Position numbers and translations under genes: made by a program. This document shows, piece after piece, positions 39,701 to 42,700 of a DNA stretch of 64,000 nt; the first letter of the stretch is position 1, and every line of letters starts with the position of its first letter. The stretch spans positions 4,789,804-4,853,803 of the forward strand of contig WARS01000030.1 of the NCBI GenBank assembly GCA_008933995.1. The letters run 5' to 3'. This stretch comes from Datnioides undecimradiatus (taxonomy: Eukaryota > Chordata > Actinopteri > Lobotiformes > Datnioididae). The notes beneath the pieces are model-generated. The model made no database searches and had not been told where the DNA came from. It worked only from the letters and a program-made list of their open reading frames with translations.

Positions 39701-42700
39701 GACCTTGGATCAGGCCTCTGTATTTCCTGTCTCACTGCAGCAGTTTTCTCTTAAAAAAAAAAAAAACACAAACGGAGATGATGGGAGACAAACAGATGAG
39801 AGAGTTTTCAGTCTGCCGCCCACCAGAGTACCACCAATTGCACGACAACCTGAACGCCATGGCAACAGAGTCACGTGGTCCCCTCCATCGTTCTCACGGT
39901 GCACCCCCCCAGCTCATTGCATCACATCACATACATACACACACAAGCATGTGCAACCACACACACACACATGCACATCCAATACACAGTCTACAGCAGA
40001 GATACTCTAGATAGACACAGCTAAGCAAGACACTGTAGCAACACACAATCACAGACACCGTGTCTGCTGCAGGAGGCAGGTCCTTAAGCAAAACTGCTTC
40101 TCTTATCAAAAAGGAGAGGCACAAATGCAAAACCACTTCCTAATATTTATAATGAATATAAAGGAGTTATAGTGCAATCACTTGGTTTTCCTGAAAATGT
40201 GATCGTAATCTCTGGTTTTATAATGTCTTCAAACATTGCAAGAAAAAAAAAAACCCAGCCATGATTACGGCCTCTGCCAGGGCTTTTTATTTCTTACAAT
40301 GGGGTCTTTTCTCTTCATCCTGAACCAGACTCTCTCTGGTCTCAACAGCTGTCTAATAGCTGTCAAGCAGACAGCTAACATCTACTTGACTGTGAAACAT
40401 GAACACCACTTTCAAAGTGTTGGCTGCACTCAAAGCCCAGACTGCCAGAGGCAGTCCATAAAAATCAAAGAGAGCTCGTAAGGACAAAAATTTGAGCTTG
40501 GAATCAGAGGGCTTTATTCCTCTCAAAGGGAACTTGTAACTGATTCTTTAAAGCAGCGGAAAAGTGTGGATTTGTGTGACCTCTAGGAAATGAATCAAGC
40601 ACAGAGCCACATGTCAGTCACCCAGGGTCATGCAGTTCAGCTCAGACACGCAGCATACGCTCCGGGCACGGTGACAATTCTATGAGTGAGATTACTCAAT
40701 GCATGTGGTTAACTCATACATCCTTTTACGTTAGCAGAGTGCTCACACTCAGAACGAACTCCTGTTTTAGGTAATCTAGAGAAGTTGCATCACAAAAAAA
40801 AAAAAAAAAAAGACTTGCAGTCGGTTCTCAGAATATGATAAAAGATGCCTCATTAGGTTTGCATATTCAAAACTGGTGAACACTGAAGTCAGTGTCTCAC
40901 AAAGTAGCAATGTAAATGATACACTATTTACACCTGGACCCTTTTAATTAATACAAAAATTCCTTTTAAGGCCAAACATTTTATCTCTTTATTGTTTCAC
41001 TGAACTCTACAAAAACAAGGCAGGAAAATCTGAATTTTATGAGTAAAAAAAGCATCTAATCAAATGTTTTCTATAGGAATGAATTACCTCATATCTCATG
41101 AATCAACTCTTGGATAAATCACAGTTTCCATATGGCAGATCACACAGCACAATGCTCCAAAACTCACCTTTTTCCAACTCGTAAACATCCCAAAGTTTTT
41201 CTTCTGCTTTTCAGAACAACATAGTCCCATTGTCACTTAACAAAAAACAATCACGACACAAAAGAAATGCTGCAAAGTTTCACGAGCTATAACTCTTTTC
41301 AGTGCGGCTAAGACTCCTGCCTTCCTCCCTCCCTCTATTCTCTGTTCACAAGTGGAGTCAGGCAGGAAACATATAGCGATAAAGCAGACTTGACTGACTG
41401 CCCCTGCACAGTCTAACAAGAGATCTATGGCTCCTCCCTCCAACACAGGCCCGAGCATGTGTCCCCACCTACTTCCCTTTTACTTGTTCAAGTAATTCAC
41501 TGAGGTCACTTACTGGTAGTCATCCTGCTTCCTAACACGGCCTCAGGCAACAACTAACATACCTGAGCTAATTACTGAAAAAGTCCCAGATAACAAGTTT
41601 GGGAGACAGTAACGCTGACAGATTGTATGTGATGTATGTATTTGAAACAAGTTGGATGAGTTCTTCCAGTACACGTTGACTTTGACTGAAACAGAGCAGA
41701 GATAGAGAGGGGATTGCACAGGAGCAGCTTGACATCACATTGCAATACTTCGACGGTGCAATCTGACAAAGTCCAGAGTGATCCAACGCTGCCTCCATCT
41801 GAAGTGTGGCTGTTTACTGTGTCAACACACTGTGGATTATGCCCAGCAGGTTTTCACAGCTTTGTAACACTAGAGAGACACATTTCCTAGAAGGTTTTGA
41901 TCAAAACTAGGTAAGAGTAGGGTTTCAATAGGAGCAGGTTTCCTATTTACCTTCCTCATGCTGGCTAATTTTCCATGATAACAGCAGATTACAGAGGTAA
42001 GACTTTTTAATTACAATTAGGCACCATAATCACTACTGCAGCTTGGCTGATCTCCCCACCGCCCTTTCAGTCAAACGGAATCACAACACTATAATTTAAT
42101 GTCCATTACCCCTGCCACAGCTACAGACCCACCACTACATCTGTTTCAATAATTTTGTCATTTTTTCCCCTCTGAAGACGGCGGTGCTTCAAAGTTGAAG
42201 TGACCACACGTGAGTTAAAGTTTCCTACTCGCTCGTGCTCCGCTCGGGGGCTCGCTTGCACGCTAACCCGCAAAGCGCTGCGCTCCTCTAACTGGATTCA
42301 GATGGCAGTGTTTGTCCAAGGTCGTCACCGGCATCAGCATGGAAGTGTGGCGAGGCTAATGATAGTGAGGGGCAGGGAAGCAGCTACCCGGTCTGAGGTC
42401 ACAGCGACCAGGCTGGCGGTCAGCAGGGTGTGTGGTCCCGTAGCCCCGGATACACCTGTGCCCTTGGACACTGAAAGTGGAGACACCCAGGGTTTGATCG
42501 TGGGTTCAATTACATCCTCTCCGTTTCCGAAAAGAAATGGGCTCTTTGTCAAACATCGCGTCACGTAAATGTGGGGAAGGAGCAGAGCCAGCAGATGCTG
42601 CATTAATGGTGCAATAATGAAACCATACTTGACAGCAGTGTTGCAACAAACATCTGTGTACAAGCACACTGAGCGCACTGATGAATCTCAACTGTAACAT

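Follow-up and report, generated by a model that had tools for sequence, protein, structure and literature searches.

A matching candidate short first exon in two pde4b copies of one fish genome suggests an apparently undescribed route of PDE4 to the membrane

The window analyzed here is a 64,000-nucleotide stretch of the genome of the fish Datnioides undecimradiatus. Exon comparison with human PDE4 peptides places a PDE4 gene on its minus strand. The features of the gene that are needed below are as follows.

55.9-54.8 kb (approximate), minus strand: UCR1 exons, by likeness to human exon peptides
Near 54.1 kb, minus strand: LR1 exon with its donor site at 54097; homology weak (E = 0.001)
45477..45589, minus strand: UCR2a exon, from its acceptor to MASNK, ending in phase 0
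41168..41230, minus strand: coding part of the candidate super-short first exon, 21 codons, phase 0, with a counterpart in a second gene copy
41162..41167, minus strand: 5′ splice site GTGAGT of the 21-codon exon, within a 9-mer identical in the second copy
38668..38715, minus strand: PDE4B5/D6-type super-short first exon, with 15 of 16 residues matching the B5/D6 peptide
38025..38118, minus strand: UCR2b exon (FKRMLNREL...), the acceptor exon for super-short first exons
36358..36578, minus strand: LR2 exon, with strong homology
33740..36249, minus strand: seven catalytic-region exons up to the stop codon, by homology and open frame (36249-36151, 35716-35552, 35194-35095, 34851-34697, 34579-34457, 34367-34185 and 34099-33740, the last of which ends at the stop)

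The product of this gene matches PDE4_UCR and PDEase_I in Pfam, and its top PDB match is PDE4B at 784 bits, followed by a PDE4D entry at 779 bits. In a tree of 306 columns that includes human PDE4A-D, the gene falls inside the A/B clade and outside a well supported pair made up of the C325 and C481 loci; the tree does not separate the two fish copies from human 4A and 4B in a definite order. We call the window gene pde4b because the B5-type exon is present in it, together with the PDB match and its clade in the tree, and this is probably the right name for it. The LR2 exon of the window copy (36578-36358, minus strand) contains a run of 12 Gln that is absent from the second pde4b copy.

The UCR2a-UCR2b intron of the window gene is 7358 nt long, and inside it, at 41230-41168 on the minus strand, lie the 63 nt that make up the 21 codons. 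The ATG has the context gtgacaATGG, with A at -3 and G at +4, an in-frame TAA stands three codons upstream of it, and the exon ends in the donor AAG/GTGAGT, which scores 12.1 bits on a 5′ splice-site matrix, the last three exon bases included. The exon joins UCR2b in phase 0, as UCR2a does, and from the ATG through UCR2b onward there is a 520-residue frame open to the stop. The initial annotation had described a 21-codon exon with a good start, a strong GTGAGT donor and a phase that fits FKRMLNREL, and every one of these elements is present. Only three donors on the minus strand between 60000 and 33800 reach at least 11.1 bits (41168, 54097 and 36358), and the other two are the ends of homology-supported PDE4 exons, weakly supported in the case of LR1 and strongly in that of LR2. 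The position between 45477, where UCR2a ends, and 38118, where UCR2b starts, fits the super-short PDE4 class, the first exons of which all lie between UCR2a and UCR2b according to passages of PMC2929239.

The same intron also holds the B5-type exon, which the initial annotation had not mentioned, and because this exon is present at 38715-38668, the window gene has two candidate super-short starts. A B5/D6-type exon is found in the second pde4b copy and in a pde4d-like locus as well. According to passages of PMC2929239 (2010), PDE4B5 and PDE4D6 have a common N-terminus, and the PDE4B super-short form is the one alternative splicing event detectable in teleost PDE4 genes. The 21-codon exon is like PDE4B5/PDE4D6 in being a first exon in the UCR2a-UCR2b intron that enters FKRMLNREL in phase 0, but the N-terminal peptide of those forms has neither Gly2 nor a Cys pair. 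PDE4A1 (PDE4A4 for human in the relevant passages of PMC2929239) offers a second likeness, being a super-short form with a unique N-terminal peptide from the same intron and an association with membranes. We find no detectable homology of the 21-residue peptides to either form: of 5000 shuffles, 397 and 1087 score as high against the B5/D6 peptide, and 432 to 1341 do so in four comparisons with the PDE4A1 peptide.

The assembly from which the window is taken (581 Mb) contains seven PDE4 loci, each with a UCR2a match (7 in total), and a search with UCR2b gave nine matches, namely the seven UCR2b exons, the candidate exon of the window and one match at E = 4. We compared the window intron with the UCR2a-UCR2b intervals of the other six PDE4 loci of the same genome, one of which, on C312, has a UCR2a that is 97% identical to that of the window and is taken as the second pde4b copy. 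Its interval contains the following feature.

C312:6809533-6809595, minus strand: second-copy 21-codon exon MGACCFDKKERKLGKLNGWRK, phase 0, with an A-3/G+4 start

This exon sits between UCR2a and the second copy's own B5 exon, which is the same order as in the window copy, and the two exons have the same length, phase and donor score and an identical donor 9-mer. In a tblastn search across the six paralog intervals it was found at E = 4.9e-5, with the next best match at 0.25. The ungapped alignment of the two exons has 41 of 63 nucleotides identical, and that of the 60-base flanks 12 of 60 and 19 of 60. The two cysteines are encoded by TGT in one of the copies and by TGC in the second, and with the method of Nei and Gojobori we obtain dN 0.35 and dS 2.08, hence a rough dN/dS of 0.17, to be read with a dS near saturation and a length of 63 nt. 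The expectation that the exon would be conserved with a fixed phase and a low dN/dS is thus borne out between the two copies. The initial annotation had asked for conservation of the ATG, Gly2, Cys4-5 and donor in related fish; these elements are kept in a paralog from the same genome, the sole comparison available, which answers that test in part. Sequence, splice phase, donor and conservation are here observed directly, in both pde4b copies of a single genome.

By sequence alone the match is weak. A blastn comparison of the two intervals recovers UCR2a, UCR2b and the B5 exon along with many repeat-like matches, and at the 21-codon exon it gives a 20-base match over the 3′ end and donor at E = 0.021, with some repeat-like matches as good. 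In a protein search of the 21 residues alone against the whole assembly, the window itself is the sole match, and against the PDB the same residues have no match at E up to 10. The identity of the second-copy exon therefore rests also on place, length, phase and donor. None of 200,000 residue shuffles scored as high as the peptide alignment, and 2 of 200,000 did when residues 1-2 were left out. At the five remaining PDE4 loci, an ORF scan between UCR2a and UCR2b (donor of at least 6.5 bits, 8-60 codons) returned no exon starting MGxCC; it lists MGTHTIIWSL... with a donor of 6.8 bits in the C328 interval, and the C325 intron between UCR2a and UCR2b is only 387 bases long. Viral contigs gave 11 pattern matches, none of them confirmed, and none in a later scan, and genome contigs gave none; fish DNA is not expected in these collections.

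An open frame that happens to end in a good donor inside an intron is the simplest alternative, and the low identity between the two peptides (8 of 21 residues) speaks for it. Against it, the window exon stands alone in the 7358-nt intron in combining a strong-Kozak ATG with a phase-0 donor, at each threshold tried from 6 to 12 bits, and with the Kozak condition dropped the sole other candidate in the intron with a donor of at least 8 bits is the B5-type exon. As a null model we made 1000 dinucleotide shuffles of the window intron, and a strong-Kozak, phase-0 frame whose donor reached 12 bits arose in 1 of these, and in none (0/1000) when the myristoylation pattern and a Cys at positions 3-6 were added. 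At a donor threshold of 9.13 bits with strong Kozak, the corresponding counts are 67/1000 and, with the N-terminal motif, 1/1000; without the Kozak condition they are 35/1000 (motif 0) at 12 bits and 408/1000 (motif 2) at 9.13 bits. When the second copy's intron was shuffled, a strong-Kozak, phase-0 frame with at least 12 bits appeared in 6 of 1000 cases, and in 0 of 1000 with Gly2 and a Cys at 3-6 as well. Across 194,012 strand-bases, comprising both strands of the window and of the six paralog intervals, the two pde4b exons are the only qualifying frames. A search of the whole 581-Mb assembly for ATGGG-4-TGYTGY-(30 to 60)-AAGGTGAGT returned three sites, namely both pde4b exons and a third that is interrupted by a stop at codon 6; the reversed control returned 0. 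The shuffles in two introns, the matching second-copy exon and the genome-wide result together leave a chance frame unlikely, and indeed very improbable.

Because the second copy keeps the place, length, phase, ATG, Gly2, Cys4-Cys5 and donor, we conclude that the window exon is, with high probability, a genuine first exon of a super-short PDE4. In our judgement, which is not a computed value, it is very likely that the 21-codon exon is real, and only slightly less likely that it serves as a super-short PDE4B start.

Ahead of the ATG there is no alignment between the two copies. In the window copy there is an acceptor-like site 173 nt upstream of the ATG (4.5 bits), and in the second copy there are acceptor-like sites 171 nt (3.3 bits) and 62 nt (4.4 bits) upstream. 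Thus, the exon might instead be an internal one with its own acceptor, either a second exon that is coding and preceded by a noncoding 5′ exon, or a poison exon adding a stop to the long forms, and the sites at 173 and 171 nt are compatible with this, since accepted PDE4 exon acceptors score 1.7 to 7.9 bits where they are found at the expected place. The missing alignment before the ATG argues against either form. A poison exon would need neither the start context nor Gly2 nor the Cys codons, all of which are kept, nor substitutions that are mostly synonymous per site, and with a noncoding first exon the protein would stay unchanged. We regard an acceptor-bearing exon as improbable, and because such sites are found upstream of both ATGs, we hold the explanation that we favor with slightly lower confidence.

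Eight residues are invariant in both peptides (M1, G2, C4, C5, K8, G14, W19 and K21), the tip pattern common to both copies is GxCC..K.....G....W(K/R)K, and the net charges of the peptides are +4 and +5. Cysteines near Gly2 are often palmitoylated, and N-termini of the GAP-43 type, in which a Cys pair near the start is followed by basic residues, are palmitoylated without myristate; GAP-43 differs in being an unrelated protein and in having no Gly2. Residue 7 is acidic in both copies, Glu7 in the window and Asp7 in the second, and Glu7 would have a precedent in AMPK beta-1, a myristoylated protein with Ser6-Glu7. The motif for N-myristoyltransferase (NMT) is M-G-[^DEFRWY]-x-[^DEKR]-[ACGST] with Lys/Arg at position 7, and peptides without Lys/Arg at 7 are said not to be excluded by the motif's authors (passages of PMC9018777, the motif quoted from Castrec 2018). 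The window copy agrees with the motif at positions 2-6, the second copy fails there through Phe6 in place of Ser6, and neither has Lys/Arg at 7. In a G-alpha-o peptide, S6F gives a largely cytosolic and nuclear protein and a poor N-myristoyltransferase substrate (PMC9018777). The proposal of a dual-acylated isoform in the initial annotation thus survives in part: Gly2 and Cys4-Cys5 are kept and the window copy fits positions 2-6, but Phe6 in the second copy and the acidic residue 7 in both count against it. Because the second copy departs from the NMT motif, we prefer S-palmitoylation of Cys4/Cys5, acting with the basic, Trp-containing tail, as the most likely common mechanism.

The same residues can be read in another way, with a real super-short first exon whose tip is not acylated and would act as a docking peptide for a partner protein or acidic lipids, the Cys pair being otherwise used. 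Besides the cysteines, the two copies agree in basic residues and in Gly14, Trp19 and Lys21, and the second copy does not fit the NMT motif, both of which are consistent with docking, as is the precedent of the unrelated PDE4A1 N-terminus, the region of which binds phosphatidic acid with no acyl group known for it (passages of PMC6022864). But four of the eight invariant residues are M1, G2, C4 and C5, which is the classic place of acylation, and we consider a docking peptide possible and clearly the less likely reading. With the basic, Trp-containing tail kept in both peptides, the contrast drawn earlier between a lipid route and a lipid-binding peptide is too sharp.

The explanation that we favor, and think probable as a whole, is that the 21-codon exon is a genuine alternative first exon of fish pde4b that gives a membrane-addressed super-short PDE4B; we infer the transcription, lipidation, location and function of this form. 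Transcription would begin at a start site of its own inside the UCR2a-UCR2b intron, and the product would be a super-short PDE4B of about 520 residues, missing UCR1 together with the beginning of UCR2. Once Met1 has been cleaved off, the tip would act as a membrane address, with Cys4 and Cys5 S-palmitoylated, the basic, Trp-containing tail in contact with acidic lipid headgroups, and Gly2 in the window copy probably N-myristoylated as well. The enzyme would then degrade cAMP beside the membrane, free of UCR1 control. In our judgement, membrane binding of the super-short PDE4B via Cys4/Cys5 is likely, N-myristoylation of the window copy has about an even chance, and N-myristoylation of both copies is doubtful. 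More tentatively, the two exons might represent a class of acylated super-short N-termini in fish pde4b that is older than the duplication of the copies and whose address has since split, the window copy being myristoylated and palmitoylated and the Phe6 copy palmitoylated only, which would give two membrane pools of UCR1-less PDE4B.

There is a known PDE with the same kind of anchor as proposed here: PDE2A3 is sent to the plasma membrane via N-terminal myristoylation and palmitoylation (passages of PMC3169605), although it belongs to another PDE family and is not a PDE4 splice form. We found no text match for MGLCCSEK or the longer peptide string in the PMC paper library, no description of an N-myristoylated PDE4 in passages of PMC3169605, PMC9018777, PMC10940682, PMC6022864 and PMC2929239, and no acylated PDE4 in those passages of a review that deal with super-short forms, myristoylation and palmitoylation. 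The initial annotation had called the isoform possibly undescribed; this agrees with text searches of one paper library, but RefSeq or Ensembl may already list the exon as a predicted isoform.

Where a cell breaks down cAMP depends on the N-terminus of its PDE4, and with a conserved first exon that encodes Gly2 and two adjacent cysteines, a PDE4B lacking UCR1 and anchored by lipid would be added. The matching short first exon in both copies suggests a membrane placement of PDE4 that is apparently undescribed. The natural Ser6/Phe6 pair in the two gene copies would allow a direct test of what myristate contributes beyond palmitate. The case also shows that duplicated genes from a single genome, when set side by side, can confirm a first exon that is short and changes fast.

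Candidate super-short exons were also seen at other PDE4 loci. In a paralog of the PDE4C/D clade that is probably pde4c (C477:6.77M, L023), positions 2653-2700 hold a phase-0 exon MPEVSYFISALWMFIQ with the donor CAG/GTAAGG, which resembles the B5/D6 exon (0/5000 shuffles reach the score); a PDE4C super-short form was not found in the survey of PMC2929239, as given in its passages. The sister paralog of that locus (C312:8.44M, L020) has a candidate MPASALCVCLYWRLRQ at 1472-1519 with a donor of 11.5 bits, and its similarity is weak (17/5000 shuffles against the C477 exon, 67/5000 against B5). At the PDE4A-like locus C481 (L019), a PDE4A1-type exon PLVDLFCETCSRPWLIGWWDQ is conserved at 2426-2488 on the reverse strand, and the start codon expected directly before it reads ACG, which would be a loss, a non-AUG start or an assembly error.

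An open frame lies directly before UCR2a in the window (45662-45591, minus strand), and we take it to resemble the start of the mammalian PDE4B2 short form. A PDE4B short form is not reported in teleosts in passages of PMC2929239. The second pde4b copy has an open extension before UCR2a too, with little likeness by eye to that of the window.
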